Below, in pieces: positions 8,251-45,544 of a stretch of DNA of 64,000 bases. The notes beneath the pieces were generated by a model. The model made no database searches. It worked only from the letters and a program-made list of their open reading frames with translations, and was not told the DNA's origin. The stretch spans positions 1-64,000 of the forward strand of contig JAKSOF010000005.1 in assembly GCA_024405735.1 (NCBI GenBank), written 5' to 3'. This DNA comes from Victivallaceae bacterium. Its GTDB lineage: Bacteria > Verrucomicrobiota > Lentisphaeria > Victivallales > Victivallaceae. Numbering within the stretch: position 1 is the stretch's first letter; every line of letters begins with the position of its first letter. The position numbers and the translations under genes are program-made.

Positions 8251-9015
8251 TTATGATTGCCTGGTTCGTTCCACAAGAGTGCGATAAGATAATTTGCCGC
8301 CGAAAAGATCGAGCGCGGAGCCGACGGTATAGTGGATGCGTCCCCTTCCGGAAGTTTCGATTTTTTCGATGTCGGCGATACTGCGGATGCCGCCCGCGTA
8401 AACGCAGTCAAGCGGGGAATTCTGTGCGAGAAAGGCGACGAGCGTTTCATCGATCCCGGCACATTTGCCCTCCACGTCGACGGCGTGGATCAGAAATTCG
8501 CAGGCGAAATTTCCGAGTTCCGCGAGCAATTCCGGAGTAAGACTCCAACGGGTGAATTTCTGCCAGCGGTCGGTGACGATCCAATACTTCCCGTCGCGCA
8601 AGCGGCAGGAAAGGTCGAGCACGAGATGCGCTTTGCCGACGGCGCGGAAAATTTCCTGAAGTTTTTCGCGTTTCAATTCGCCGTCGGAAAAGATGAAACT
8701 TGTCACGATCACCTGCGATGCGCCGGCATCGAGAAAGATCCCGGCGTTGTCCGCCGTAATGCCGCCGCCCGCCTGCAATCCGCCGGGATAAGCGCGCAAC
8801 GCAGCAAGCGCGGCGCTCTCATTGCCCTTGCCGAGCATAATGACATGCCCGCCCGTCAAACCGTCGCGGCGGTAAAGTTCCGCATAATATTCCGGCGGAG
8901 AAGCGGCGACGAAATTCGTCGTCACTTCCCCCGTGTCGCGCAAGGTGGAGCCGACGATCTGCTTGACACAGCCGTCGTGCAAGTCGATACAGGGGCGGAA
9001 TTCGGCGCGTTTCAC
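8251..9015 (-). CDS. hisA: ProFAR isomerase HisA, eukaryote-like subfamily
   Basis: This enzyme catalyses the Amadori rearrangement of ProFAR to PRFAR, the substrate of HisF. The N-terminus FRPCIDLHDGCVKQIVG is the pattern of the eukaryotic HIS6 branch and differs from the usual bacterial start (PAIDLKDG). The proximal catalytic Asp is in CIDLHDG, and the second acid is in the HAVDVEG strand near residue 170. Typical turns GGGIT and YAGGIRS bind phosphate. The 254 residues fit. It is translationally coupled to the unknown gene upstream (four-base overlap) and followed after 13 bases by rhaB, so it is separated from the rest of the his genes. Confidence 0.9.
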   Translation of the reverse strand: MKRAEFRPCIDLHDGCVKQIVGSTLRDTGEVTTNFVAASPPEYYAELYRRDGLTGGHVIMLGKGNESAALAALRAYPGGLQAGGGITADNAGIFLDAGASQVIVTSFIFSDGELKREKLQEIFRAVGKAHLVLDLSCRLRDGKYWIVTDRWQKFTRWSLTPELLAELGNFACEFLIHAVDVEGKCAGIDETLVAFLAQNSPLDCVYAGGIRSIADIEKIETSGRGRIHYTVGSALDLFGGKLSYRTLVERTRQS

Positions 9016-10052
9016 CGTATTTCCTCCGTTTCCGGCAGAAGTTCGCGCGGCGGACGGCTCAACACCTCGCCGAGCAACGAATGATCTTTTTCAGCATCCA
9101 GCGTGAAAACGCCACCCGCCTTGCGCAACTCGCGGTTCGCCCAGCGGTAGGAAGCAAGATATTCCTGCATCGGGCTGTGGAGCAACGCGCCGCGCCCTCC
9201 CCGGTCAAGATGCGACGGATCATCGCAAAGCGCCGTCGAAACGCCGCCGAGGAGGAAATCCCCCTGCGTCCGGCGGATGCGGCGGCGCAATTCCCGGCGC
9301 CACGCTCCGGAAAGCGGACACCCGGGGATGGTTTCCGCCTGCGATCGCGGCGCAAACGATTGATCGCTTGCGCTTTTCCACGCGACGAGCGTGTTGAAGC
9401 GCCACGGGCGTTTTTCCGATTCGACGCCCTCGTCGTAACGCAATACCTGGCGAAACAAATGCAATCCCTTTTCGTCGCGGACAAGGGAAAATTCCGCGCT
9501 GACGCCCGTCATCGCGCTTGCGGCGTCGTGCCGCCAGACGTCGAATCCGGTCTGATATTCGACCGACACGCCATCGGAAAAATCGACGCGCAAAAGAAGC
9601 GGCAACTTTTTGCCATGGTAAATTTCCCCCTGCTCCGCCGCTGAAAATTTTTCCGGGCCGTTTTCGCCCAGCAAAAGGAGCGACACCTGACTCCCGTCAC
9701 CCGGAAAAAAAAGTTCCTCCAGCGCGAGATCGCCGACTCTGCCGAAGTGAAGCGCCGCGACGTCGGTCGAAAAATCCAGCGCGCCGTCGCCGCACTCCAA
9801 TGTGCGCTTGACCTCATATTCACAGCCGAAAGGCAATACGCACACCGTGTCGATGCCGCAGAGGAAATTCGCCTCTTCGCGGTGGACGCGGAATTTCTTA
9901 TCCAATGCGCCCAGTTCGGTGAATTTGCCGCAACACACCCTGCCGACGGCAAGGCGTTCAACGCCGTCGACGGCGAGCGAGTAGATATATTTTCCGGTGG
10001 ATTTCGCCGTCAGCGCGAAATTTTTTCCGGCAATGGTATAACTTTTTGCCAC
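9012..10052 (-). CDS. Unknown 346-residue protein in the nitroreductase-hisA operon
   Basis: I do not recognise this protein. It is a soluble, probably beta-rich polypeptide with no signal peptide, membrane segment or nucleotide-binding loop. There are many short alternating hydrophobic strands (YSLAVDGVERLAVG, LDFSTDVAALHFG, LLLRVDFSDGVSVEY) and an Arg-rich stretch near residue 250. This resembles a carbohydrate-mutarotase-like or galactose-binding sandwich, but I see no catalytic pattern to support it. It starts two bases after the nitroreductase stop and its own stop overlaps the hisA start, so it is certainly co-translated. A sugar-related role would fit rhaB downstream; this is inference. 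Confidence 0.75.
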   Translation of the reverse strand: MAKSYTIAGKNFALTAKSTGKYIYSLAVDGVERLAVGRVCCGKFTELGALDKKFRVHREEANFLCGIDTVCVLPFGCEYEVKRTLECGDGALDFSTDVAALHFGRVGDLALEELFFPGDGSQVSLLLLGENGPEKFSAAEQGEIYHGKKLPLLLRVDFSDGVSVEYQTGFDVWRHDAASAMTGVSAEFSLVRDEKGLHLFRQVLRYDEGVESEKRPWRFNTLVAWKSASDQSFAPRSQAETIPGCPLSGAWRRELRRRIRRTQGDFLLGGVSTALCDDPSHLDRGGRGALLHSPMQEYLASYRWANRELRKAGGVFTLDAEKDHSLLGEVLSRPPRELLPETEEIR

Positions 10053-10054
10053 AA

Positions 10055-10564
10055 CTACAGCACTTTCATCATCTCATCGGCGGAAACGCGGGCAAAGGGG
10101 CGCAAATTCCCCGCCGGATGGCCGACGGGAAAAAGCACGTCGACGTACCACGGCGCCTGAACCTGAAGAATTTCGGCGGCGCGCACCGTGTCGAAGGCGG
10201 CGACCCAGCAACTGCCGAGTTTTTCCGCCGTCACGGCGAGCGCGAAATGCTCCGCCGCGATCGCCAGGTCGATCTCGCCGATACTGCGGGAATCGTTTTC
10301 GTTGAGACGCCACGCCGCATCGCGGTTGACGAGCCCCGCGACGACGACGGGCGCATCGAGGATCGACGGCTGTACCGTCACGCTGTGAAGTTGCCGGATC
10401 AACTCGGGATTTTCGATCCAGAGGAAACGGTAAGGCTGACGGTTGCACGCCGACGGCGCGGCGGCGACGCATTGCGCGATGCGCGCACGCGCTTCGGCGG
10501 AAACCGGTTCGGCGGTAAACTGACGCACGCTCCGGCGCGCGGAAATCACATCATAAAAATCCAT
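10055..10564 (-). CDS. Nitroreductase-family flavoprotein
   Basis: This FMN-dependent NAD(P)H oxidoreductase of the nitroreductase fold has 169 residues, a short single-domain form. The first helix and the signature ISARRSVRQF (residues 7-16) with the SACNRQPYRFL loop near residue 40 place the flavin phosphate and isoalloxazine contacts. The C-terminal LFPVGHPAG is the usual second FMN contact. These enzymes reduce nitro compounds, quinones or enones, and the physiological substrate is not predictable. It heads a five-gene operon (to the binding protein at 4987) with an AAAGGAG ribosome site. Confidence 0.88.
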   Translation of the reverse strand: MDFYDVISARRSVRQFTAEPVSAEARARIAQCVAAAPSACNRQPYRFLWIENPELIRQLHSVTVQPSILDAPVVVAGLVNRDAAWRLNENDSRSIGEIDLAIAAEHFALAVTAEKLGSCWVAAFDTVRAAEILQVQAPWYVDVLFPVGHPAGNLRPFARVSADEMMKVL

Positions 10565-12423: not shown

Positions 12424-14190
12424 TTAAAGATCAATTAATTCCGGAGCGTGTTTCTGCAACAACTCCTCGGCGAGTTTCATCGGCTCGTCGTCGTCCGTCG
12501 CCCGGAGCGCCCGTTCGACCAGTTGCTCCGCATCAAACATACTGACGCTCCGGATCGCGCGGCGCACCAGCGGGATCGCCGGAGACGCCATACTCAATTC
12601 CTGGATCCCCATTCCGACGAGCAGCAACGCCGCCGCCGGATCCGCCGCCATCTGCCCGCAGACGGCAACGGGGATCCCCTTGCGCTCGGCGCACTCCACA
12701 CAATGGCGGATCAGCCGCAGAACCGCCGGAGAAGCCGCCCGGTTCAGGTAGGAAACCCTTTCATTGAGACGGTCGATCGCCATCGTGTACTGGACAAGGT
12801 CGTTGGTGCCGATGCTGAAAAAATCGACGTATTCGGCGAGATCTCCGGCGGACAACGCCGCGGCGGGAGTCTCGATCATCGCGCCGAAAAGGACGCGCGA
12901 ACTGAATTCCAGATTCTCCTGCGCCAACTGGTTTTGCACCTGCCGTATCAACTCGCGGCATTCGATCAATTCCTGGACACTGCTGACCATCGGCACCATG
13001 ACGCGCAGATCGCCGGAGACCCCGGCGCGGAAAAGCGCGCGCAACTGGGTCGTAAAAAGATCGCGTCTTTCGTAAAGACAAAGCCGTATCCCGCGCAGTC
13101 CGAGGGCGGGATTGACTTCGGTGAAGCGGTAGACATTGCCGGAAACTTTGTCGGCGCCGATGTCCAACGTGCGGATCGTCACCGGACGCTCCCCCGCGGA
13201 AATCAGCAGTTCGCGGTAGCACTTGTACTGCGCTTCCTCGTCAGGAAGTCCGTTCTGCTCCATAAACATGAATTCGGTACGAAACAGTCCAATGCCGTAG
13301 GCTCCCATTTTGCTCGCCTCGGCGTATTGTCCGGCGGCATCGATGTTGGCGGCAAGTTCCACCTTGAAACCGTCCGTCGTTTCGGGGGTCAATTCCGTTT
13401 CCCTGCCCAATTCGTCGATCAGTTTCCCGGCGGCGGCGGCTTTGAGCCGGTACGCCTCCTCGGTACGCGCATCGGGGTTGACGATCAGCCGCCCCGCGAC
13501 GCCGTCGATGATGACGATGTCGTTGGAACGCAACTTGTCAAAAACTTCGTGCGGCAAACCGGAAACGGCGGGCAGACGCATCGACCGCGCCAGGATCGCG
13601 GCGTGACTGGTCGCACTGCCTGTTTCCACCGCGAAACCGAGTACCTTGGTGCAATCCAACTGGACGGTTTCCGACGGCGTCAAAGCGTCGGCGACGATGA
13701 TCCGGCGGTCGTCAAGACTGGGACGGGCGACCTCTTCCTCGGTCAGATTCGCCATCACGCGTCCCGTGACGTCGCGCAGATCGGCGGCGCGCTCCTGCAA
13801 ATAGGGGTCGGGGATCGCGCTGAAAACGCCGATGAAATGCTCGGTACTGCGGGAAATGGCAAATTCGGCGGAATTTTTTTCCTCGCGGATATGCTTCTCG
13901 ATGTCCGTCAACAGCATACGGTCGTCGAGCAAGAGCAAATGGGCGTCGAAAATCCCCGATTCCTCGGCGGAAAGTTTGGCGCCGAGCGTCGAACGCAACT
14001 CCTGCAACTGTTTGCGGGTGGTTTCCAGTGCGGCATGGAGCCGGCTGATCTCGCTTTCGACTTTTTCCTCGGGGATCGTACTCGCATTGGGCTCGGCGAG
14101 GCGGTTGAGCCGCTGAATGCGCAGAACCCTGCCGATCGCGATCCCGGGAGAGATCGCGATCACTTTGATATTCTGCATCAAAGAACCCAT
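12424..14190 (-). CDS. ptsI: Phosphoenolpyruvate-protein phosphotransferase (PTS enzyme I)
   Basis: Enzyme I autophosphorylates with PEP and passes the phosphate to HPr. The 588 residues are near the usual 570-580. The phospho-histidine site is in GSATSHAAILARS near residue 200, the PEP-binding Arg region in GLFRTEFMFM near 300, and the C-terminal barrel signature in DFFSIGTNDLVQYTMAIDR near 460, ending with the Cys of AVCGQMA. Two in-frame ATGs (14190 and 14178) are both possible starts. It follows ptsH directly. No EIIA, EIIB or EIIC gene is in the window, so the pair may feed a small number of permeases elsewhere or serve mainly in regulation. Confidence 0.96.
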   Translation of the reverse strand: MGSLMQNIKVIAISPGIAIGRVLRIQRLNRLAEPNASTIPEEKVESEISRLHAALETTRKQLQELRSTLGAKLSAEESGIFDAHLLLLDDRMLLTDIEKHIREEKNSAEFAISRSTEHFIGVFSAIPDPYLQERAADLRDVTGRVMANLTEEEVARPSLDDRRIIVADALTPSETVQLDCTKVLGFAVETGSATSHAAILARSMRLPAVSGLPHEVFDKLRSNDIVIIDGVAGRLIVNPDARTEEAYRLKAAAAGKLIDELGRETELTPETTDGFKVELAANIDAAGQYAEASKMGAYGIGLFRTEFMFMEQNGLPDEEAQYKCYRELLISAGERPVTIRTLDIGADKVSGNVYRFTEVNPALGLRGIRLCLYERRDLFTTQLRALFRAGVSGDLRVMVPMVSSVQELIECRELIRQVQNQLAQENLEFSSRVLFGAMIETPAAALSAGDLAEYVDFFSIGTNDLVQYTMAIDRLNERVSYLNRAASPAVLRLIRHCVECAERKGIPVAVCGQMAADPAAALLLVGMGIQELSMASPAIPLVRRAIRSVSMFDAEQLVERALRATDDDEPMKLAEELLQKHAPELIDL

Positions 14191-14211
14191 TGCATCACCA
14201 ACGTCAAATCG

Positions 14212-14496
14212 TTATTCCTGAAAACTTTGCGAAAAAAATTCCGTGATCGCCGCAACGGCTTCCGGCGCGTCTTCGCCCTCAGCGCAAAGGAGCAAATCCG
14301 TGCCCTGCGTCGCCGCCAGCACCAGAAGGGAAAGGATACTGCGGCAATCGGCGGGCTCGTCCGGATCTTCCGGACGGCAAAGCGAGATTTTGGAGCGGTA
14401 CTTGGAAGCCAGTTGCACCAGCATCGCGGCGGGTCGGCCGTGCAATCCCAAAGGACTGGAAACCGTCACTTGTGCATTGCATTTTGTCTGAGCCAT
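14212..14496 (-). CDS. ptsH: Phosphocarrier protein HPr
   Basis: HPr relays phosphate from enzyme I to sugar-specific EIIA proteins. The 94-residue product has the active His in GLHGRPAAM near residue 20 and a serine in CRSILSLLVLAA at the position of the regulatory Ser46 loop. The start at 14496 (MAQTKCN) gives the family length; the frame is open further upstream, but that part covers the promoter leader and hairpin. The segment between the two motifs is longer and more acidic (RPEDPDEPADC) than in E. coli HPr. HPr kinase is not seen here, so serine phosphorylation is only possible, not shown. Confidence 0.93.
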   Translation of the reverse strand: MAQTKCNAQVTVSSPLGLHGRPAAMLVQLASKYRSKISLCRPEDPDEPADCRSILSLLVLAATQGTDLLLCAEGEDAPEAVAAITEFFSQSFQE

Positions 14497-14519
14497 CTTG
14501 AAATCCCGTCGTTTGCAGT

Positions 14520-14547
14520 TAAAAAAGCCGGGGGAACACTTCTCCCG
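14520..14547 (-). terminator. Hairpin and T-run in the ptsH leader
   Basis: A hairpin (CCGGG with CCCGG, one mismatch, then GAA with TTC) is followed on the minus strand by CTTTTTT. It lies between the ptsH promoter and the ptsH start. It could end readthrough from the murF-murE operon or attenuate ptsH transcription. The two cannot be separated by sequence alone. Confidence 0.6.
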
Positions 14548-14558
14548 GTCACTTATAT

Positions 14559-14587
14559 AATATACACTCAAAAACGCTAAAAATCAA
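14559..14587 (-). promoter_or_regulatory. Promoter of the ptsH-ptsI-waaA operon
   Basis: Minus-strand TTGATT (14582-14587), 17 bp, TATATT (14559-14564). The predicted start near 14552 is only about five bases before the leader hairpin. Confidence 0.65.
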
Positions 14588-14691
14588 ACATTTCCCGGAT
14601 TTGAGCGGTTCCGCCGGGGGCGTTTCACGCGGCATTCAAACGGACGGATTTCCCGTTTTCTCCAAAAATGTTTGCGCTTCCGGAGCCGGGA

Positions 14692-16149
14692 TTATTTTTT
14701 CGTCCAATCGCGGATGATCGCGGAATCGCTGAAAGGATGGCGGATATGATCGATTTCCTGATAATTTTCGTGTCCCTTGCCCGCGATGAGGATGAAATCA
14801 CCCTTTTCCGCGATGCCGAGGGCGTATTCGATCGCGGCGCGGCGGTCTGCGATGCGCCGGAAATCAAAATTTTCCGGAATACCGGCAACGATCTCATCCA
14901 GAATGCTTTCGGGATTTTCGGTACGGGGATTGTCGCTGGTGACGACGGCGAAATCGCTGTTTCCGGCGACGACGCGCCCCATTCGCGGGCGTTTGGTGCG
15001 GTCGCGGTCGCCCCCCGCCCCGAAAACCACGATCAACCGTTTGCCGCCGAGCCGACGCAAAATGTCAAGCACGTTTTTCAGCGCATCGTCGGTATGGGCG
15101 TAATCGACAAAGGCAACGGCGCCGTTGGGAAGATCGTACCGCTCCAGCCGCCCCGGCGCCATCACGCAGTTGGCGGCGGCGGCAAGCAAAATCCCGTCGC
15201 CGATGCCGAGCGCGCGCGCCGCAAGCAATGCTCCGGCAAGATTATAAATGTTGTGCAAGCCGATCAGCGGCGTCGATACGGCAAGGCGCGCCGTGCCGGA
15301 CGAAAGGACAAAACGCGAACCGTCGGGACGCAATTCGACGTCGCTGATCCGCCACGCGGCATCGGGGGATCTCCCGAAGGAAAGCGTCGATCGAAGCGCC
15401 GCCAACTCCCGGCAAAGCCGCGCACCATAGGGATCGTCAACGTTGATGACGGCGCATCCATCCGGCACGAGATATTCGGTAAAAAGCCGCTTTTTCGCCG
15501 CAAAATAATTTTCCATATCCTTATGATAATCAAGGTGATCGCCAGTCAGATTGGTAAAAACGGCGACTTTGATCCCAAGGCCCGCCAGACGGCGTTGATC
15601 GAGCGAATGACTGGAAACTTCCATCGCGGCAAAGTCAAGACCGTTTTGCTTCATTTTTTGCAACAGCGAGAAAAATTCTCCGGCGGCGGGCGTCGTCGCA
15701 TTGGCGGCAGTGCGTTCTTTGCCGTCGTCCGTTTCGATTGTGGAAACCATTCCGCAACGGCGGTGCGCCGTCGTCAGAATATGCCGTAAAAAATATGCGG
15801 TGCTCGTTTTCCCGTTCGTCCCCGTAACGCCGATCACATCGAGCGTTTCGTCCGGGAAACCGCAATGCGCCCTCTCCAACCGGGAATACGCCGCCGCCGC
15901 ATCGCGCACCCGGATCATCGTGACACCGGATACGGCCGTTGCGGCGGATTCGCAGAGGATCACCTTTGCGCCCTTTTCTATGGCAACGGGAATGAATTTC
16001 GCGGCATCGACGTTGACGCCGCGAATAGCGGCAAAAAGCGCGCCCGGCGTAACGGTCCGCGAATCGCAACAGATCTTTTCCGGCAACGCGATTTGCGCCG
16101 TTTCGGGATGGACGACGAGATCGCCGAGGAGAGAAAGGATCGTTTTCAA
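14692..16149 (-). CDS. murE: UDP-N-acetylmuramoyl-L-alanyl-D-glutamate--2,6-diaminopimelate ligase
   Basis: MurE adds the third amino acid of the peptidoglycan stem peptide in the cytosol, using ATP. The 485 residues are normal. The ATP loop VIGVTGTNGKTSTAYF lies near residue 105, the UDP-MurNAc contacts TTPAA and EVSSHSLDQ near 150-180, and the C-terminal domain holds DNPRTENP near 400. The DNPR motif is the accepted mark of meso-diaminopimelate rather than lysine specificity, so the cell wall should be of the Gram-negative A1gamma type. The start overlaps the murF stop in ATGA. The gene closes the RAM-lipoprotein-murF-murE operon. Confidence 0.97.
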   Translation of the reverse strand: MKTILSLLGDLVVHPETAQIALPEKICCDSRTVTPGALFAAIRGVNVDAAKFIPVAIEKGAKVILCESAATAVSGVTMIRVRDAAAAYSRLERAHCGFPDETLDVIGVTGTNGKTSTAYFLRHILTTAHRRCGMVSTIETDDGKERTAANATTPAAGEFFSLLQKMKQNGLDFAAMEVSSHSLDQRRLAGLGIKVAVFTNLTGDHLDYHKDMENYFAAKKRLFTEYLVPDGCAVINVDDPYGARLCRELAALRSTLSFGRSPDAAWRISDVELRPDGSRFVLSSGTARLAVSTPLIGLHNIYNLAGALLAARALGIGDGILLAAAANCVMAPGRLERYDLPNGAVAFVDYAHTDDALKNVLDILRRLGGKRLIVVFGAGGDRDRTKRPRMGRVVAGNSDFAVVTSDNPRTENPESILDEIVAGIPENFDFRRIADRRAAIEYALGIAEKGDFILIAGKGHENYQEIDHIRHPFSDSAIIRDWTKK

Positions 16150-36069: not shown

Positions 36070-39000
36070 TTATTTTTCCTCCATCGCATTGTCGGTCCAC
36101 ATTTCACACTGGCTGATGACGATCTGTAACGCTTCCTCGGCACTTTCCGGCGGATATTTGTATTTTTTCAACAGGCGTTTGACCATCGAACGCATTTTTG
36201 CCCGGGCTGTTTCCTTTTTTTGCCAATCAACCGTGCAGTTATTGCGAAGCATCTCCGTCAGTTCTTTTGTGATTGCTACAAGCTGGTCATTGTCATAAAA
36301 GTCCTTGACTGCCTGCGGTTTGGTCAACGCATCATAAAAAGCGAGCTCCTCGGCAGAAAGTCCGAGCTTGTTGCCGGATGAAGCCGCAGTCGCAATCTCC
36401 TCGGCGATCTTTTTCAACTCCTCGATAACTTCCTCATTGGTCAGCATCCCATTCAAATAAGCGTTCATCACCCGCTGGAGTTTTTCAGAAAACAGCTCGG
36501 ATTTCACCACATTGGTCCGGCGATATACCGAAACCTGCTCGGCGAGCAGTTTTTTCAGTATCTCGATGGCGATGTTCTTTTCCTTCATCTTGGAAATTTC
36601 TTCCAAAAACTTCGGATCGAACAACGAGAATTCCTTTTGCACATCGGCAAAAAGATTTATCACGCCATCGCTTTTGATGCTTTGCTTCAGCAATTCGTTG
36701 ATGCGTTCGTTTATTTCTTTAAGCGAAAAATGCTTGGGGTCGACAGTGATGCGCGTCAACATGGTACGCACCGCCTCGATGAAAGCCGCCTCGTAACGTT
36801 CTTCCTGCGGAACTATACTGCGGCACAGCGACAACGCCTGACGGAGCAGCAGACCTTCCTTGATGAAGAGTTCTTTTTTCTTCTGCTCATTGGGATCGGA
36901 CAGGAAGTTCACGGCCCCGACGATGAGTTGCGAGCGCTGGAGGTCTGACCCCTGCATAAATCCCGAATAATCGAATCTGTGCAGCAGCGCCCGGCAAACT
37001 TCCAGTTTTTCCTGAAACTTCGGCAACGCGGCTTTGCCGATGTCGGTGTCGCCGTAATTTTTTCTGTCGCGCACGGTATAATCGTTCATCGCCTGTTTCA
37101 ACGCGCTGGCGATCCCGACGTAATCCACGACCAATCCGCCTTCCTTATCCTTGAACACGCGGTTCACACGGGCGATGGCCTGCATGAGGTTGTGTCCGGA
37201 CATCGGCTTGTAAACATACATCGTCGCCAGACTCGGCACATCGAATCCGGTCAGCCACATGTCGACGATGATGGCGATTTTGAGAGGATCGTCGTTGTCC
37301 TTGAACTTTACGGCCAGCCGCTCGCGATGAGATTTGTTGCCGACTATGGGGCGCCAATCTTCTGGATCGTCATTGCTGTCGGTCATCACCACGGCGACTT
37401 TTTCGTTCCACGCCGGGCGCAGCTCCAATATCTTGCGAAAGATGCTCATGGCGATGGGGCGGGAATAGGCGACGATCATCGCCTTGCCGGTCAATTCCTG
37501 TGCGCGGAAATTCTCATAGTGCTCGACTATGTCGCGGCAGAGCGCGTCGATGGTCTGCGGTGCGCCGAGGATGCTTTCCATCTGTCCGAGTTCTTTTTTG
37601 CTCTTCTCGATGGCGTAAGGCTCCGCGTTCTGGGCGAGCAGTTCATATTCGGCGTCGATCTTTTTCAGTATTTTCTCGTCGAGATTAAGGTGTACGACCC
37701 GGCTTTCGTAGAACACCGGGCGGGTCGCGCCGTCCTCGACCGCCTGCGTCATGTCGTAGATGTCAATGTAGTCGCCGAAAACTTCGCGGGTGTTGCGGTC
37801 TTTTTGAGAGATCGGCGTACCGGTGAAGCCGATGAAGGTGGCATGGGGGAGGCTGTCGCGGATGAGCCGGGCGGTACCGATGTGGATCTTACCGTCTTTG
37901 TCGATCTTCTCGAAGCCGTACTGTCCGCGGTGCGCCTCGTCCGCCATGACGACGATGTTGCGCCGCTCGGAGAGCGCGGAGCCGGACTCCTCGAACTTCT
38001 GCATGGTGGTAAAAATGATGCCGTTGGCTTCGCGGTCTTTAAGCAGATCCCGGAGATTTTCCCGGCTGGACGCCTGTATCGGCGTTTGACGCAGGAAATC
38101 CTTGCACTTGGAGAACTGCCCGAAAAGCTGGTCGTCGAGGTCGTTGCGGTCGGTGAGCACCACGATGGTCGGGCTCTTCAATTCCCGTTGAAGCAACTGG
38201 GCGAAAAAGACCATCGATAGGGATTTTCCGCTGCCCTGCGTGTGCCAGAAGACGCCGCCGCGACCGTCGGTCTCGGTGGCGCGGACGGTGGAAACGACCG
38301 CTTTGTGGACGGCGTAGTACTGGTGATACCCGGCGAGGATCTTCGCGTCATTTCCGTTGTCGCGGGAAAAGCAGATGAAGTTGCGCAGAATGTCCAATAA
38401 GCGGCGTTTTTCCAGCATCCCCTCGAAGAGGACGTGAAAATCGGCATAGGCGGTGCTCTCGTAGGAACCATCGACGGTTTTCCACTGCATGAAGCGGTCT
38501 TCGCCGGAGGTGATGGTGCCGACGCGGGTTTCCGCCATGTCGCTCATGATGCAAAAGGCGTTATAGATGAAAAACGAAGGGATCTCCCGCATGTAGTTGC
38601 GGAGCTGCCGGTAGGCTTCGGAGGCATCGGTTGCTTCGCGAGAGGGAGATTTTAACTCTACGACGACCAGCGGCAGACCGTTGACGAATATGACCACGTC
38701 GGGGCGTTTTTCGGAGCGTTCGACGAAGGTCCACTGGTTGGCGACGATGAAATTGTTACGGTCGGGGTTTTCATAGTCGATCAGGCGGACGCGGTCGTGT
38801 TTCTGTTCGCCCTCGTGGGTGAATGTGACTTCGATGCCGTTTTGAAGATAATCGGTGAAGGTCGAATTTTTCTGGACCAGGCTGCCGTTTTCGATATTGC
38901 GGAGTTTGAACAGCGTCTCGTCGACCGCCGCCCGCGGCAGTCCGGAGTTGATCGCGATCAGCGCACTTTCCAAAACTGCAGAATACAGCGGATCGCGGTA

Positions 39001-39099
39001 ATCCCGCTCAACTTCCGGCCCATAGACATGAGCATAGCCCAACTGTTCGATCAGCTGGATCACCGCGTTTTCATAATTTGCTTCTGTGTATGGATTCAT
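36070..39099 (-). CDS. hsdR: Type I restriction enzyme R subunit
   Basis: HsdR is the motor and nuclease of a type I restriction-modification complex, cutting unmodified DNA after ATP-driven translocation. The 1009 residues fit. The N-terminal PD-(D/E)XK nuclease is visible in RPDVVIFVNGLPLVVVELKS near residue 135-155. The helicase has Walker A HTQGSGKSLSM near 290, motif II MADEAHRGQYG near 390, TGTPIS, and motif VI QAIARVNRVF near 650. The C-terminal helical part contacts HsdM. Its start overlaps the stop of the OLD-type gene (ATGA), so restriction subunit and OLD protein are co-translated. GC content is host-like, unlike the three genes before it. Confidence 0.96.
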   Translation of the reverse strand: MNPYTEANYENAVIQLIEQLGYAHVYGPEVERDYRDPLYSAVLESALIAINSGLPRAAVDETLFKLRNIENGSLVQKNSTFTDYLQNGIEVTFTHEGEQKHDRVRLIDYENPDRNNFIVANQWTFVERSEKRPDVVIFVNGLPLVVVELKSPSREATDASEAYRQLRNYMREIPSFFIYNAFCIMSDMAETRVGTITSGEDRFMQWKTVDGSYESTAYADFHVLFEGMLEKRRLLDILRNFICFSRDNGNDAKILAGYHQYYAVHKAVVSTVRATETDGRGGVFWHTQGSGKSLSMVFFAQLLQRELKSPTIVVLTDRNDLDDQLFGQFSKCKDFLRQTPIQASSRENLRDLLKDREANGIIFTTMQKFEESGSALSERRNIVVMADEAHRGQYGFEKIDKDGKIHIGTARLIRDSLPHATFIGFTGTPISQKDRNTREVFGDYIDIYDMTQAVEDGATRPVFYESRVVHLNLDEKILKKIDAEYELLAQNAEPYAIEKSKKELGQMESILGAPQTIDALCRDIVEHYENFRAQELTGKAMIVAYSRPIAMSIFRKILELRPAWNEKVAVVMTDSNDDPEDWRPIVGNKSHRERLAVKFKDNDDPLKIAIIVDMWLTGFDVPSLATMYVYKPMSGHNLMQAIARVNRVFKDKEGGLVVDYVGIASALKQAMNDYTVRDRKNYGDTDIGKAALPKFQEKLEVCRALLHRFDYSGFMQGSDLQRSQLIVGAVNFLSDPNEQKKKELFIKEGLLLRQALSLCRSIVPQEERYEAAFIEAVRTMLTRITVDPKHFSLKEINERINELLKQSIKSDGVINLFADVQKEFSLFDPKFLEEISKMKEKNIAIEILKKLLAEQVSVYRRTNVVKSELFSEKLQRVMNAYLNGMLTNEEVIEELKKIAEEIATAASSGNKLGLSAEELAFYDALTKPQAVKDFYDNDQLVAITKELTEMLRNNCTVDWQKKETARAKMRSMVKRLLKKYKYPPESAEEALQIVISQCEMWTDNAMEEK

Positions 39100-40763
39100 T
39101 TGACAAGATTTTCCACTGCTCTACAAAAATCGTTGACTTTGTCAGTGGAGATAGTTCCATTTATATATTTCTCCAACAACAACTGCGGTTTTAAATATTT
39201 GTCTTTCCCATCGACCTTGGGAAGGCCAAGGAAACTTTCAAGATCCTTATTCAAGGAACAGGTTTTACGGGTAAATTCATTTTTGCTAGATTCGATCAAA
39301 TCATTCCACTGTTGCTGATTACTACTTCCGTTGTCTGAATCATAAAGGACAGAATGTGTTATGCCAAGCGCCCCACATAAATTCATAAATTTTGGCATAT
39401 TGAATTTTCCCATGGAATCTAATATATAACAACCAGATGGTATATTTAGTTTATCATCATCAACCAATTTATTAATCAGAACGATCTCACTAGGACCTTC
39501 AACAAAAATGACTTGATCTGCAAAAAATATATTGAGCCTATCTGGGTTAAAAAGAATAAAATACCTCATTAATTCCATTTCTTGGGTATGGAGTTCCGCA
39601 TGGCTGGGAGAGGCTAGGTTGGCTGTAGCGGAAAGATTGCATTGGGAAATCTCATCCCATTTTTCATGAGAAATTTGTCTGTAAACAACTTTCCCTGTAT
39701 CTCGAGACGCTTTTATGAGAGAAAAAATGGCCTGTTCTTTGCGCGAAAGCATAAATGGAGAATGGGATGTGCATATCACCTGAACATTGGGCGCATTAGC
39801 CATTTTTATCAGGGATTTAACCATGTTTTCTTGCTGAACTGGATGCAGAAATGCTTCTGGCTCTTCAAAAAGAATAAGTGTCATTTCGGGCAAAAAAGAT
39901 TCTTTTTCTGTAGTTTTTGTTACTTTGGGTTCAAACTGAGAAGACAGTTCCAACAAAGAATAGATGAAGTGTCGCTGAAATCCAGAGCCAAACACCGACA
40001 CATCTTGTTGAGTCCCTAAGGACAGATCACTAAGCTCAAAACCGACCATGTTTTTTACAATTAAATCAATCGTTGGCGGAGTGATTGTTAAATTAAAGCT
40101 AGTGTTCCAATTGCTCAATTTTTCAGAAAAGCATTGCTCAAAATTAAAAAGAGTATTCTCCTGATTACTTTTTAGCCCTTTTATTTCTCTCGCAAAAATG
40201 TCGACACTGCTCTTGAAATTATCATATGCACTACTGCTTTTGGCGACAGTTGTCATCAGGTTCAGCAAGAGATCGCGAAGCGCAGAGGCCCCTGTCATCT
40301 TGGTATGATCCTCAACTTTACTAACAGCGGGGATGTATATGATACTCCCAAATTTTCCTTGCTGTACTCCCTTCCATCCATAAAATGAAGAAGTACTGAG
40401 TTGATTCGTGTCCGCTAAATATGCATAAATGGTACCATTTTTATAATTCTGATTATTTGTCGCAAAAAACTTTCTAACCTTAAGCTTTTTATCTGGCAAT
40501 ATATATTCTTTTTTCAATCCATCGCAATCATCATCGGTTAGATTAAAAATAATTTCAATCCATGCTTCTTTTTCACTTTTTAATAATACAGATAAATCTT
40601 TGTCTGTAAATTTATAATCCTTTTCATAAAATGCTCTTATCGCATCTATAAATGTCGATTTGCCAGCATTATTAGTCCCAACAAAGATGGAATATGAATT
40701 TAATTTTACCGTTTGTTCTTCAATCCCACGAAAATTATGGATTGTGACCTCTTGGATTTTCAT
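39096..40763 (-). CDS. OLD-family ATPase/Toprim nuclease inside the type I R-M operon
   Basis: The 555-residue protein joins an ABC/SMC-type ATPase to a C-terminal Toprim nuclease, the layout of the OLD (overcoming lysogenization defect) family, to which phage-defence proteins such as GajA belong. Walker A GTNNAGKST is at 29-37, the Q-loop and signature region follow, Walker B LILFEEPEAFLHP is near 295, and the switch region is ICTSHSPFML. The Toprim part has the catalytic Glu in VIFVEGPSE near 420, then DSMGK near 448 and an Asp pair in LYDSDNG near 473. The gene is AT-rich compared with hsdM and hsdR. It overlaps the hsdR start by four bases and follows hsdS. No UvrD-like GajB is adjacent. 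A role as second effector is inferred. Confidence 0.85.
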   Translation of the reverse strand: MKIQEVTIHNFRGIEEQTVKLNSYSIFVGTNNAGKSTFIDAIRAFYEKDYKFTDKDLSVLLKSEKEAWIEIIFNLTDDDCDGLKKEYILPDKKLKVRKFFATNNQNYKNGTIYAYLADTNQLSTSSFYGWKGVQQGKFGSIIYIPAVSKVEDHTKMTGASALRDLLLNLMTTVAKSSSAYDNFKSSVDIFAREIKGLKSNQENTLFNFEQCFSEKLSNWNTSFNLTITPPTIDLIVKNMVGFELSDLSLGTQQDVSVFGSGFQRHFIYSLLELSSQFEPKVTKTTEKESFLPEMTLILFEEPEAFLHPVQQENMVKSLIKMANAPNVQVICTSHSPFMLSRKEQAIFSLIKASRDTGKVVYRQISHEKWDEISQCNLSATANLASPSHAELHTQEMELMRYFILFNPDRLNIFFADQVIFVEGPSEIVLINKLVDDDKLNIPSGCYILDSMGKFNMPKFMNLCGALGITHSVLYDSDNGSSNQQQWNDLIESSKNEFTRKTCSLNKDLESFLGLPKVDGKDKYLKPQLLLEKYINGTISTDKVNDFCRAVENLVK

Positions 40764-40790
40764 AGCATTCTTCCTCCGCTAAATTGCGAT

Positions 40791-42046
40791 TTACACCTCT
40801 ACATCCGACACGTCGATCTCCCCCGACATTAGTTTCGGCAACAAAGTGTCGCGAAGAGATGCAAGTCGAGTTGATTCCTCTATCGTTTGAGACATCTTAC
40901 GATATGTTTGCTCAAAAACTGCGACAATGTTGTCGAGTGACGACCAGTCCTCAGGGAAATAAAAACTGTATTCCGGCAATGCTTTCTTGCTCATGTGTAA
41001 CACGGTCGTCCCATTGACATATCCCAATGCATGAGCTTTGAATTGCGGAGAATTGAGCAAAGAAGCCAAAAGAAATCTGGAGATGCCTGACTTGGGGATA
41101 ACTTTTACCAAATCCATAGACATAATCAGTTTTCTATAGCCTCCTGTAGACAGTATTATTTCTGCATTACCAATAACTTCGGCATTTTGTGTCAAATCCG
41201 TGTGGGCGACTAAAATGTCGAACAAATCAACTTGCTGTTCGGCCTTGAGTTTTTCCGATGGAACAATTTCCTTGAACCCATCCAGCTTAAAACCGCCATT
41301 TCTGTCAAAGTTTTTGATTGTAGCCATCGCGCAATCAGAAGCCTGGAGTTCGTTTCCTTTATACGAATACCCGCCGACGAAATCGGCTATTTGTGACAGA
41401 CGAGTCTTCTGCCATCCTTCAGGGAGTGAACCACCAAACGGCTCGAAATTCACGAACCATGACTTGAAGATGGCCTGCGCCTGTGCCTCCAAATTTTGGT
41501 TTGAATATTTAGTTCGATTTTATTGCTTATAGAGTCAAGAATAGAAATTATTTTTTTCTGCTCCGGAATAGAGGGCAATGGGATTTCTATTGTTTTTAGA
41601 AACGATGACGGTTGTGCAATCGAAGGAACCCCTACTTGACTTACGTTCGCAAGGAGTTTCCCCTGTCCCTCGTGAGAATGCAGATAATAAACAATAAATT
41701 CAGGAAAAACTTTTTCTTTGTCACATCTTAAATAAAATTGGCGTTGCGATAACATGTAATATGGATAATGACAGTGCGCAGGGATCATCGCCACTTGACC
41801 AACATTGCCAGCATGCGTAAAAATAATATCTCCGGGATACACGATAGAATTCTTTAACCGATCCGCGTGTTCTTTCGTGATATAATTAAAAGATTCTTCT
41901 GACAGATAAAAACCTTTTAAGTGCATTCCACTGATTACAGGAACGCCTGATTCTACGAAAGTAGATACCTTAATATTTGAGCCGAATGGTCCCATCGCGA
42001 TTTTGTTAGCAATATCAGATATTTTGCACTGCTTGAAATTATTCAT
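40791..42046 (-). pseudogene. hsdS: Type I specificity subunit HsdS, broken by a frameshift
   Basis: HsdS carries two target-recognition domains and sets the DNA site for methylation and cutting. The first part (42046 to 41450, 198 codons) has the first domain and the central helix start PSIPEQKKIISILDSISNKIELN. The second part, in another frame from about 41500 to 40791, continues with the standard LEAQAQAIFKSWFVNFEPFGG and a second recognition domain ending in TRLASLRDTLLPKLMSGEIDV. Restoring one base in the A4T3 tract at about 41496-41502 would fuse both into one normal protein of about 418 residues. Either the gene is inactive, the tract is phase-variable, or the read has an error. Half-HsdS proteins can sometimes work as dimers. 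Confidence 0.85.
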
Positions 42047-42620
42047 ATTCAGCCCTCATCAGGTCTTTAAAACATGTATATCCTATTGGAGATGGAGGAG
42101 CTGTCTGAAAACCCCATGTTGTGCCACGCTTAATATGTTTCGTTATAGATGTTAAATGTCCTCTTTCGTATAAACAGAGGATGAATATATTTTCCGCGAG
42201 AATTAAATGGTATCCGATCAAATAGCGATATTTATATCTAGGTGCGGTAAACCATGTAAGTTTATCAATATCAGAACTCCAGGAGTTAGCATTATTACTT
42301 TTTTTGACTTCAACCACTATTTTATTGGCAGAGCTTCCTGTTTCTGTGGCTGAGAAGATAAGAATATCAGGATATGTATGTATTTGTCCAGGAATTTCTT
42401 TTGATGTGGTTCCATTTTCGCCATGCGCTTTGTTATATTCGCAGAAAACAGAACATCCAGCAAACGCATTGTATAAACGACAACCTATACGAAAAACCAA
42501 TGCTCTTTCACAAAGATCATCTGCTAATAAGCGATTCTCTTCGTTATAAAATTCACGGATCTTTCCTATAAAAATTCTTTTGAGATCTTCCGCTGATATA
42601 TTTTGATTATTTTCCATCAC
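42039..42620 (-). CDS. PD-(D/E)XK nuclease-like protein inside the type I R-M operon
   Basis: I recognise no named family. The 193-residue protein shows a plausible PD-(D/E)XK core: a helix with Glu and Arg (LCERALVFRIGCRLYN, residues 36-51), then YPDILIFS with Asp85, a short loop, and IVVEVKKS with Glu104 and Lys106. This is the spacing of small restriction-endonuclease folds. The N-terminus has a helical stretch (DLKRIFIGKIREFYNEENR). It overlaps hsdM by four bases and hsdS by eight, so it is an integral part of the operon. Base composition is AT-rich. It could be a nuclease effector, an anti-restriction partner or a regulator. The fold call is mine from motifs. Confidence 0.72.
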   Translation of the reverse strand: MMENNQNISAEDLKRIFIGKIREFYNEENRLLADDLCERALVFRIGCRLYNAFAGCSVFCEYNKAHGENGTTSKEIPGQIHTYPDILIFSATETGSSANKIVVEVKKSNNANSWSSDIDKLTWFTAPRYKYRYLIGYHLILAENIFILCLYERGHLTSITKHIKRGTTWGFQTAPPSPIGYTCFKDLMRAEYE

Positions 42621-44119
42621 TTCACCTCAAAGCCGATGGCTTTCAGATTCTTTTTGATCTGCACTTCGAGATCGTGTGATTGAGCGAAAAGTTCAAAGAG
42701 CTCGCCGGTCAGGCGGTTCATCTTGTCTTCGAAAGGTTCGCCGTCGTCCTGTTGCTCTTCGATGCCGACGTAGCGGCCCGGCGTGAGGATATAATCCTGT
42801 TTGGCGATCTCTTCGGTCGTGACAACTACACAGAAACCTTTTTTATCTTCCAGGGTTCCGGATTCATAGGTGTCGAAGGCTGCCGCGAGTTTAGTGATGT
42901 CTTCGTCGGTCAGCTGGCGCAGTTTCCGCGAAACCATCGACCCCATTTTGCGGGCGTCGATGAAACAGGTTTTTCCCTTCTGCTTTTTGTTTCGATCCAA
43001 AAACCACAACGATACCGGGATCTGAGTGGTGTAGAAAAGCTGCGTCGGCATCGCCACGATGCAGGAAACCAGATCGTCCTCGATGATCTTTCTGCGGATA
43101 TCCCCTTCGCCACCGGATTGTGACGACAACGAACCGTTGGCGAGCACCATGCCGATCTTTCCATTGGGCGCGAGGTGGTAGATCATATGCTGCAGCCATG
43201 CGAAGTTTGCGTTGCCGGCGGGCGGGACTCCGTACTTCCATCGCACGTCGTCACGCAATTTGTCGGCGCCCCAGTCGGAGAGGTTGAACGGCGGATTCGC
43301 CATGATGAAGTCCGCCCTCAGCGTCGGGTGGCAGTCGTCGTAAAAAGTGTCGGCATTATAGCGCCCCAGATCAGCTTCGATGCCCCGGATGGCAAGATTC
43401 ATCTGCGCCATCTTCCAGGTCGTCGGGTTGGAGTCCTGTCCGTACACCGAGATGTCGTTGATGCGCCCAGAGTGCTGCTCCACGAACTTCGCCGACTGCA
43501 CGAACATTCCGCCCGAACCGCAGCAGGGGTCATAAACCCGACCGTGATACGGTTTCAGAAATTCCACCAGTGTCCGCACCACGCACGCCGGGGTGAAGAA
43601 TTCGCCGCCCTTCTTGCCCTCCTGTTCGGCGAACTGCGCAAGGCAGTATTCATAGGTGCGCCCCAGTATGTCGCGGGAATCCCCCTGATTTTTCATCTTG
43701 ATATTGGTGAAGAGATCGACCACGTCACCCAAGCGGCGCTTGTCCAGTTCCGGGCGGGCAAAATTCTTCGGTAAAATCCCTTTGAGCCGGGTGTTCTCTT
43801 TTTCAATCAATAGCATCGCGTCATCAATTATCTTACCGATCTCCGGCGTGTGTGCCGCCTCCGCAATTTTCGCCCAGCGCGCATCTTCCGGCACGAAAAA
43901 CACGTTGCAGGAAGTGTATTCATCACGATCTTCCTCGAAGCCGTCGCCCTCCTTCTTCAATTCCTGATAACGGGCATCGAATTTATCCGAGATATACTTC
44001 AAAAAAATCAAGCCCAAAACGACTTGCTTATACTCCGATGCATCCAAGTTTCCACGTAAGATGCAAGCGGCATCCCAAATCTCTTTCTCAAATCCGATAT
44101 TCGCGGTATTTTCAGACAT
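42617..44119 (-). CDS. hsdM: Type I restriction-modification DNA methyltransferase
   Basis: HsdM is the adenine-N6 methyltransferase subunit. The 500 residues have an N-terminal helical domain (KEIWDAACILRGNLDASEYKQVVLGLIFLKYISDKFD), SAM-binding motif I YDPCCGSGGMF near residue 200 and catalytic motif IV MANPPFNLSDWG near 280. The GGEFFTP motif before motif I is typical. It is the first gene of the operon and has the host-like GC of about 57 percent by count on one 60-base line. The following genes drop to about 38 percent on a similar count. A strong promoter lies upstream. Confidence 0.97.
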   Translation of the reverse strand: MSENTANIGFEKEIWDAACILRGNLDASEYKQVVLGLIFLKYISDKFDARYQELKKEGDGFEEDRDEYTSCNVFFVPEDARWAKIAEAAHTPEIGKIIDDAMLLIEKENTRLKGILPKNFARPELDKRRLGDVVDLFTNIKMKNQGDSRDILGRTYEYCLAQFAEQEGKKGGEFFTPACVVRTLVEFLKPYHGRVYDPCCGSGGMFVQSAKFVEQHSGRINDISVYGQDSNPTTWKMAQMNLAIRGIEADLGRYNADTFYDDCHPTLRADFIMANPPFNLSDWGADKLRDDVRWKYGVPPAGNANFAWLQHMIYHLAPNGKIGMVLANGSLSSQSGGEGDIRRKIIEDDLVSCIVAMPTQLFYTTQIPVSLWFLDRNKKQKGKTCFIDARKMGSMVSRKLRQLTDEDITKLAAAFDTYESGTLEDKKGFCVVVTTEEIAKQDYILTPGRYVGIEEQQDDGEPFEDKMNRLTGELFELFAQSHDLEVQIKKNLKAIGFEVK

Positions 44120-44284: not shown

Positions 44285-44312
44285 TTGATTTTTTATGAAA
44301 AACCCGTATATT
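44285..44312 (+). promoter_or_regulatory. Promoter of hydF
   Basis: TTGATT (44285-44290), 16 bp, TATATT (44307-44312). It supports the hydF start at 44333 and not the earlier ATGs, which would lie upstream of or at the transcription start. Confidence 0.6.
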
Positions 44313-44332
44313 ATGAAAAATGCGAGGTGGTT

Positions 44333-45544
44333 ATGGATGGGGTACCGAAATCTTTGCGGTTGCAGATCGCGCTCTTCGGCAGAGCCAATTGCGGCAAGTC
44401 GACGCTGATAAATAAAATTTCCGGTCAGGACGTTTCTATCGTTTCCCCTCAACCCGGTACCACCACCGACGTCGTCGAAAAAACGATGGAACTCCATCCC
44501 CTCGGCCCCGCCGTTTTTCTCGATACCGCCGGATTTGACGATGATTCCCCCCTCGGCGCCCTGCGCATCGAGCGCACCCGCAAAATTTTTCAACGCGCCG
44601 ACGTCGCCATCCTCGTTACTTCTCCCGGCATTTGGGGCGCGTCGGAAAAGGAAATCGTTGTCGCCGCAAAAGAGCACAAAATTCCTATTATCGTCATTAT
44701 CAACAAGTGTGACGAAGTTCCCCCTTCCCCCGATTTCTCAACTCTCATTCGCGCGGAAGGCATTTCGCAGATCATCCCCGTTTCCGCCCTTTATGACAAT
44801 CGCGACGCGATATTATCCGCGCTCAAAGCGGCATTGCTGGAAGTTGTACCCGATGATTTTCTCCAGAATCCGCCGCTGCTCCGCAATTTCATTACCCCCG
44901 GAAGTCTCGTCGTTCTCATCGTACCGATCGACATTCAAGCCCCGCGCGGCAGGTTGATTTTACCGCAAGTTCAGGCGATCCGCGACGCGCTCGACGGGGA
45001 TTCCGCCGTCATTGTCGTCAAGGAATCGCAATATGCCGAAACCCTCAAAAAGCTCAATGTTTCTCCCGATCTCGTCGTCTGCGACTCCCAGGTCGTCGAC
45101 TTCATGGTCGCCAACACGCCCCCGGAAATCCCCTGCACGACTTTTTCCATTCTCCTTGCCGCCGCCAAGGGCGATATTGCAATTCTTGCTTCCGGCGCCG
45201 AAAAGATCGATCAGCTTCAGGACGGCGACAGGATTTTAATTGCCGAAGCTTGCACGCATCACGCCACCTCCGACGACATCGGCCGCGTCAAAATCCCCCG
45301 GCTCATCCGCCAGAAAACCGGAAAAAATTTGGCATTCGACGTTTTTTCCGGTCACGACTTCCCGGAAAATCTCACCGACTACGCTCTCGTCATTCAATGT
45401 GGCGGCTGTATGATCGGTCGCCGCGAGATCCTTTCAAGGCTACAGACCGCACAAAAGTATCACGTCCCCATCACCAACTACGGCATGGCGATTTCCGCTT
45501 GTCGCGGCGTTTTACCGCGCGTAATGAGCGTTTTTAAGAAGTGA
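44333..45544 (+). CDS. hydF: [FeFe]-hydrogenase H-cluster maturation GTPase HydF
   Basis: HydF is the scaffold and GTPase on which HydE and HydG build the 2Fe subcluster of [FeFe]-hydrogenase. The 403 residues match. The GTPase domain has FGRANCGKST, DTAGFDD and NKCDE. The C-terminal cluster-binding domain has the CTHH start and the later CGGCM pair (the CxH...CxxC iron-sulfur ligands). The start at 44333 has a GAGGTGG site. The hydrogenase and HydE/HydG are not in the window. Its presence implies a strictly anaerobic hydrogen metabolism. Codon use differs a little from neighbours, with more pyrimidine-ending codons. Confidence 0.95.
   Translation: MDGVPKSLRLQIALFGRANCGKSTLINKISGQDVSIVSPQPGTTTDVVEKTMELHPLGPAVFLDTAGFDDDSPLGALRIERTRKIFQRADVAILVTSPGIWGASEKEIVVAAKEHKIPIIVIINKCDEVPPSPDFSTLIRAEGISQIIPVSALYDNRDAILSALKAALLEVVPDDFLQNPPLLRNFITPGSLVVLIVPIDIQAPRGRLILPQVQAIRDALDGDSAVIVVKESQYAETLKKLNVSPDLVVCDSQVVDFMVANTPPEIPCTTFSILLAAAKGDIAILASGAEKIDQLQDGDRILIAEACTHHATSDDIGRVKIPRLIRQKTGKNLAFDVFSGHDFPENLTDYALVIQCGGCMIGRREILSRLQTAQKYHVPITNYGMAISACRGVLPRVMSVFKK

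Follow-up and report, generated by a model that had tools for sequence, protein, structure and literature searches.

Why do two genes for predicted nucleases stand among the genes of a type I restriction-modification (R-M) operon? This question is raised by a locus of a Victivallaceae bacterium (assembly GCA_024405735.1, contig JAKSOF010000005.1, positions 1 to 64,000; this whole stretch of 64,000 nucleotides is referred to below as the window). The operon is encoded on the minus strand in the order hsdM, a small gene for a protein of 193 amino acids (aa), hsdS in two frames, a gene for an OLD-like protein, and hsdR. This order, with OLD-type and PD-(D/E)XK-type proteins embedded in the operon, had been proposed in an earlier, sequence-only reading and is borne out by the coordinates of the open reading frames (ORFs) and by the identities of both proteins. 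Since the two extra genes occupy two gaps, hsdM/hsdS (slot 1) and hsdS/hsdR (slot 2), and other genes stand there in relatives, the operon looks like a chassis on which second-line anti-phage weapons are swapped. Judging by the gene contents, it is probably a carrier of exchangeable genes, many of them of defense type, in these two slots.

The frame of the operon is formed by hsdM and hsdR. The hsdM gene (42617..44119, on the minus strand like all operon genes below) encodes a type I methyltransferase subunit of 500 aa, which scores 178 bits against NCBIfam TIGR00497 (cut-off 243), yet its HsdM_N and N6_Mtase domains are far over the Pfam cut-offs. The hsdR gene (36070..39099) encodes the restriction and translocase subunit of 1009 aa, in which HSDR_N, SWI2_SNF2, and T1RH-like_C exceed the Pfam cut-offs and TIGR00348 reaches 610 bits. 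With the catalytic motifs of HsdM and HsdR intact (NPPF, DPCCGSGG, TQGSGKS, DEAH, and VVELKSP), the locus is identified as a type I R-M system. An assignment to the methylation-associated defense system (MADS) was rejected because the equivalog scores were far below the cut-offs (MAD3, 54 of the 420 bits needed; MAD5, 29 of 400). The hsdM and small genes overlap by 4 bases, the small gene and hsdS by 8, and the OLD gene and hsdR by 4, as the sequence-only reading had it.

The closest HsdM (95% identical) was found in genome G118, another species of the same genus, whose HsdR is 92% identical, and the DNA identity to the window is 93.1% in hsdM and 84.7% in hsdR. The ratios of nonsynonymous to synonymous substitution rates (dN/dS) against G118 are approximately 0.09 for hsdM and 0.07 for hsdR, and their G+C contents are 53.4% and 53.8% (54.5% for the window). 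Both genes are host-like in G+C content and under strong purifying selection as measured against this one relative. The cargo of the two loci differs completely: the G118 locus (L038) carries TIR, hsdS, Fic, tyrosine recombinase, split hsdS, and FRG-like genes, the TIR and recombinase genes being assigned by Pfam. The window's small gene (35.2%), OLD gene (36.0%), and hsdS halves (38.0% and 44.7%) are lower in G+C, and relatives carry other genes in place of the cargo. Neither the exchange of cargo nor its low G+C content had been mentioned in the sequence-only reading.

The hsdS gene consists of two overlapping frames, each matching one half of a specificity subunit. The first half (41450..42046, 198 aa) has one recognition domain, scores 53.6 bits against Pfam Methylase_S, and shares 75% identity with the corresponding HsdS half at L006, another operon of the order. 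The second half (40791..41492, 233 aa, TTG start) has one recognition domain in the other frame, with 14.4 bits against Methylase_S (22 needed) and an E-value of 1.2e-31 against PADLOC Specificity_I. No single frame holds two recognition domains; the sequence-only reading had placed hsdS correctly in the order and had taken it for one gene, overlooking the frameshift. As the sequence comes from one assembly, the frameshift could possibly be a sequencing or assembly error, and a canonical minus-one programmed frameshift was judged unlikely by eye. Split hsdS genes, as two half-genes with 4-base overlaps, are also present at L038, L041, and L042.

The frame of the window's hsdS is broken at its midpoint (41450-41503), where a block of 99.7% DNA identity to G118 begins. 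The block comprises 733 bases (40771-41503) and corresponds to the second hsdS half; it extends from a short sequence at the midpoint (41487..41501, minus strand) to just before the OLD gene. Set against the 84.7-93.1% identity in hsdR and hsdM, it suggests that a cassette of half an hsdS was exchanged recently, and the midpoint sequence is a candidate crossover site. This sequence has one exact copy in the window and two copies flanking the split in L038; with up to two mismatches 0.26 copies are expected by chance, and a single copy is no evidence alone. At L038 (6342-12491), the tyrosine recombinase lies between two hsdS genes, one of them split, an arrangement that suggests shuffling of specificity and cargo. 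In the window's genome, this recombinase has only Xer-like relatives (31-34%).

Genes in the two slots were surveyed across the phylum in 84 loci selected by HsdM, 68 of which contain a complete operon. Same-strand frames of at least 80 aa were found in slot 1 of 31 operons, in slot 2 of 54, and in either slot of 60 of the 68; with a 150-aa cut, the numbers were 27, 53, and 59, respectively. The Pfam content of 49 scanned slot-1 proteins (four from incomplete operons included, the window's own left out) comprised DUF1016_N (7), YhcG_C (6), KilA-N (4), DUF6680 (3), PDDEXK_3 (1), and TIR_2 (1), as well as Abi_2. Since YhcG genes occupy slot 1 at L047, L075, L088, and L094, a PD-(D/E)XK nuclease of another family is not rare at this place. 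Among the first 25 of 98 families from 129 of 141 slot-2 proteins, AAA_21 (13), AAA_15 (11), AlbA_2 (8), Fic (6), RhuM (5), Abi_C (4), AAA_13 (3), and FRG (2) were recorded. The small gene is present in three of the 68 complete operons, all with an OLD-type gene in slot 2 (a fragment at L007), compared with six of the 65 others having any OLD/AAA-profile match (one-sided Fisher p 0.0017, in a post hoc test on related genomes). By Pfam, the OLD Toprim family was found in none of four of these six operons.

The small gene (42039..42620, slot 1) starts with GTG, followed by an ATG codon. Its 193-aa product contains Pro84-Asp85 and Glu104-Val-Lys106, plus Glu38 and Glu61, which confirms the PD...EVK spacing noticed earlier. 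In a 20-row alignment of the family, E38, V58, E61, N63, P84, D85, E104, D117, and Y133 are invariant, and K106 and K107 are conserved at 90% or more. Of the 24 family loci from GTDB genomes described below, L012, L014, L019, L020, L025, and L031 are not among the 20 rows; of these, only L012 entered the tree described below, which also lacks L064. No credible Pfam, NCBIfam, or PHROG family matched the protein. It matched the PADLOC profile PD-Lambda-3_A (PDLC03986) at 2.1e-7 and 29 bits over 107 of 159 positions, the library having no curated cut-off for this profile, and all 20 alignment rows matched it as well (best 3.6e-66), which places the protein in the PD-lambda-3 family by profile. 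In excerpts of the cited papers, PD-lambda-3 is termed an abortive system (PMC13190303) and placed under PD(D/E)XK nuclease (PMC10952713); the term is absent from the main text of the discovery paper (PMC9519451).

The AlphaFold2 model of the small protein is confident (predicted local distance difference test score (pLDDT) 82.9, predicted template modeling score (pTM) 0.81). VIA-align comparison of Foldseek candidates yielded neighbors with Z of 5.3-7.9, mostly of restriction-endonuclease fold: the rows shown include DUF820-type nucleases, DrdV, EcoRV, Hjc, RecU, and an HsdR fragment, besides some unrelated rows, e.g., Rep15. The nuclease rows are singly middling and consistent as a set. Against PDB chains, the sequence alone gave nothing credible (best E 0.084), and the best match of the family profile was a restriction-endonuclease-like protein (E 0.083). 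By its conserved D...(E)xK motif and its restriction-endonuclease-like core, the protein is assigned to the PD-(D/E)XK superfamily, as the sequence-only reading had supposed, and is a predicted nuclease.

In the order, the small gene was found in four of 137 genomes, the window's included, always directly after hsdM. The full layout hsdM, PD-(D/E)XK, hsdS, OLD-type, hsdR recurs at L006, so the embedding seen in the window is not confined to one locus; there, a Fic gene follows the OLD gene (590 aa, AAA_15 and OLD-like_TOPRIM). At L007 the order is hsdM, small gene, a 233-aa gene, hsdS, a 211-aa N-terminal OLD fragment without a Pfam match by itself, FRG, and hsdR; at L008, an hsdM that is split into two frames precedes the small gene, after which come frames that look transposase-like by eye. 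Related proteins occupy slot 1 of two different operons (L007, 7332-8033, without a Pfam match; L109, 12811-13479).

GTDB genomes yielded 24 small-family loci, six of them type I-linked (L006, L007, L008, L027, L030, and L032). These counts rest on HsdM, HsdS, and HsdR profiles built here, by which very distant forms could be missed. At L032, from a Kaiserbacteria metagenome-assembled genome, the small gene lies beside hsdS and the contig ends before any hsdM; at L028 it is divergent from hsdM. L030 has two small-gene copies, one per slot of a single type I operon (8315-10390 and 13536-16109). After its hsdR lie an AAA_13 gene, which we take to be PrrC/RloC-like, and a weak OLD-profile match. 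In the class of the L030 genome, three of 395 genomes match (itself included). Of their four places, three belong to type I operons; one of these is the newly found L125, which has the small nuclease with no OLD gene inside the operon. Both Lentisphaerota and Actinomycetota have type I operons with the small nuclease. In the window's phylum, eight of 387 genomes match, at nine places.

Overlaps of 4 bases on both sides of the small gene were found in six of the eight copies measured (L007, L027, both L030 copies, L032, and L125); the remaining junctions are overlaps of 4 and 8 bases in the window and gaps of 11 and 3 at L006, L008 being outside this measurement. On the 30-member tree, the type I label needs four changes on the best topology and three to four in bootstrap trees, compared with 8.0 on average for shuffled labels (0 of 500 shuffles as low as observed). 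A single clade of the nine type I-linked rows was rejected by the approximately unbiased (AU) test (p 0.004). The window groups with L006, L007 with L008, and the Actinomycetota rows together, and L032 stands apart.

The slot-2 gene (39096..40763) encodes a protein of 555 aa with Pfam AAA_15 (PF13175, 109 bits, cut-off 32) and OLD-like_TOPRIM (PF20469, 51 bits, cut-off 23). Walker A is located at residue 29, the Walker B block starts at 296, and the Toprim residues are Glu422, Asp475, and Asp477. The protein matched PADLOC Old at 8.9e-59. It also matched the solved OLD structure PDB 6p74 (2.1e-10), in an alignment that pairs the glutamate and aspartates of the two Toprim domains. An N-terminal ABC ATPase followed by a C-terminal OLD-type Toprim domain with its catalytic Glu and Asp makes this a firm identification as an OLD-family protein, based on profiles and motifs, and all the motifs listed in the sequence-only reading were located. 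Gabija (GajAB) was rejected for want of a UvrD-like GajB; as none of the six operon proteins scanned matched UvrD (genes outside the operon were not scanned), the OLD protein is not Gabija-like in context. The phage anti-restriction-induced system (PARIS) was also set aside: the protein matches an AriA profile at 4.8e-34, but it contains the Toprim domain that PARIS has in a separate protein, AriB. At E <= 1e-20, an OLD relative was found in one of 137 genomes of the order, the source genome itself, which means that this particular OLD subfamily is not recurrent in the order. Plasmids yielded 128 records with an OLD relative at E <= 1e-5, all below 60% identity, and both contexts opened show solitary genes.

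Relatives of the small protein also occur elsewhere. Among plasmids, six records match the window's protein and 48 that of L027; the contexts of five of the 48 were opened. On the enterobacterial plasmids L132, L133, and L135, a TIGR02391 gene comes after a small-nuclease relative (in L135 separated from it by an insertion sequence), and the two are possibly a two-gene unit. Beside these genes lie bacteriophage exclusion (BREX; brxL) at L132, Hachiman at L133, and a restriction endonuclease gene at L132 and L135. An L027-type relative stands about 6 kb from hsdR, a Xanthomonas relative near UvrD-helicase and type III effector genes, and an AbiH gene lies two genes beyond a rhizobial relative. 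Known defense or restriction genes are close by in four of six opened contexts, and the fifth has a distant hsdR. Short-pattern scans of viral contigs gave no relatives of the OLD or small family, and phage records contained one distant small-family relative with the L015 protein as query. In the window itself, a GTPase gene (44285-45544, opposite strand), HydF-like by eye only, lies directly upstream of hsdM.

That type I loci can harbor embedded genes has already been published. Campylobacter hsd loci were reportedly described by Miller in 2005 and embedded defenses by Payne in 2024. As far as excerpts of the papers cited here go, Campylobacter jejuni has extra ORFs at the same two positions, hsdR-hsdS (rlo) and hsdS-hsdM (mlo), and they mention no PD-Lambda-3-type nuclease or OLD protein (PMC5183652). 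The window's cargo is of this kind, i.e., non-R-M genes between hsd genes, varying among relatives. TgvAB, within the type I operon of Vibrio pathogenicity island 2 (VPI-2) in Vibrio cholerae, is likewise an embedded anti-phage pair, acting on phages with modified DNA; it is a GmrSD-type two-gene system, and its kind of nuclease differs from the window's (PMC11411939). Enteropathogenic Escherichia coli (EPEC) carries DarTG2 between hsdS and hsdR, and a pair of an RNA-binding protein and an AAA ATPase is also described from this position (PMC12255303); a proposed hotspot in this gap and ATPase cargo are shared with the window, whereas DarTG2 is a toxin-antitoxin effector with a dedicated repressor, RptR. 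In the ecoprrI type IC locus, too, the R-M locus encodes a nuclease effector, PrrC (PMC12707154), but PrrC belongs to the AAA_13-family anticodon nucleases, and a PrrC-type guard protein was rejected here since no AAA_13 (PF13166) match was found among the six operon proteins.

Compared with its own families, the small protein shares the PADLOC profile of PD-lambda-3, but the match is distant and the genomic context differs. YhcG/DUF1016 proteins, which are likewise encoded in slot 1, have a nuclease domain from the same superfamily, but are larger, two-domain, and of a different Pfam family. The OLD protein has the same ATPase and Toprim layout and catalytic motifs as the OLD family, including GajA. 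No description of a PD-Lambda-3/OLD pair inside a type I operon was found in the literature searched, which excluded bioRxiv preprints and most subscription papers. So far as that literature shows, the PD-Lambda-3-type nuclease in the hsdM/hsdS slot and its repeated arrival there are new, as is the species-to-species swap of half an hsdS beside changed cargo.

If the operon is such a chassis, the whole of it would be expressed from one mRNA, with HsdMS(R) forming the first barrier to unmethylated DNA. The OLD protein may be a self-contained sensor-nuclease, in which the ATPase would gate the Toprim nuclease, acting on phages that escape restriction. The small protein would be a second nuclease, from a family with one member aborting infection in E. 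coli, and repeated entry beside hsdM together with translational coupling suggests that its gene may gain from co-expression or contact with the methyltransferase. Nuclease activity, defense function, co-expression, and triggering of the cargo are all predicted from sequence. A bolder version, which we regard as doubtful, makes the PD-Lambda-3-type protein an accessory nuclease subunit that would dock on HsdM-HsdS. It would have been recruited independently several times, mostly at the hsdM/hsdS junction, a position coupling its synthesis to that of the methyltransferase, and would cut DNA or kill the cell on DNA that HsdR cannot cleave. Several observations weigh against seeing exchangeable nuclease cargo on a working chassis. 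With hsdS frameshifted, the chassis may itself have lost its activity in part or altogether. The survey frames are mechanical ORFs. Of the 24 GTDB loci, 17 have neither hsdM nor hsdS as a neighbor (L023, one of the 17, is located about 8 kb past an hsdM-hsdS pair), and at the phylum places other than the window and L008, all seven lack hsdM, hsdS, and hsdR in the stretch fetched. The small-family tree leaves 16 of 27 forks open and has several long branches, and no more than two label changes are required if only well-supported branches are counted. Foldseek gave no match to the small-protein model at E <= 0.001, and the best structural match is middling (Z 7.9).

Other explanations account for parts of these data. 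The sequence-only reading had seen one composite system, which is not upheld: cargo varies by locus, the OLD gene and the small gene are not a fixed unit, the two plasmid OLD relatives whose surroundings were inspected are solitary, and L125 has no OLD gene in its operon. A milder form, in which an OLD ATPase sensor and a small nuclease effector work together and merely happen to straddle hsdS, draws on the OLD-type gene in slot 2 of all three complete small-gene operons, on an AAA_15 gene two positions ahead of the small gene at L032, and on a convergent AAA_15/AAA_21 gene after hsdR at L027, its Toprim match just under the cut-off. This association was tested after the fact on related genomes, L125 and likewise L030 lack such a gene inside the operon (L030 has only the genes past hsdR), and the OLD proteins of the window and L006 are only about 20% identical, so that the two genes were hardly inherited as a pair; we consider this explanation improbable. 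Restraint by the R-M complex, with nucleases held inactive and released when a phage anti-restriction protein binds, as for PrrC/EcoprrI, is somewhat unlikely. It has a published precedent in PrrC (PMC12707154, in the part available), and PARIS, with its OLD-type ATPase, senses the DNA mimic Ocr according to an excerpt of PMC12839542; the small gene is locked by overlaps on both sides in most copies, and its type I linkage arose more than once on the tree. Neither protein is PrrC-like, however, and the family members outside type I loci, at least, do not need HsdM/S for restraint.

Hitchhiking of a defense island in a decaying locus, with broken hsdS and cargo functionally untied to R-M, is favored by the frameshift, the recombinase of L038 with only Xer-like relatives in the window's genome, the solitary OLD genes on two plasmids, and the location of most small-family genes outside type I loci. 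It is unlikely in view of the strong purifying selection on hsdM and hsdR against G118, the intact frames and catalytic residues of both nucleases, and the clustered and repeated type I label on the tree. Read as a chassis, type I operons, usually scored as plain restriction systems, would here be carriers with interchangeable genes in two gaps. A fresh exchange is visible between two species of one genus, and the repeated arrival of the small nuclease family beside hsdM offers a direct test of whether it works with the methyltransferase or merely travels along.

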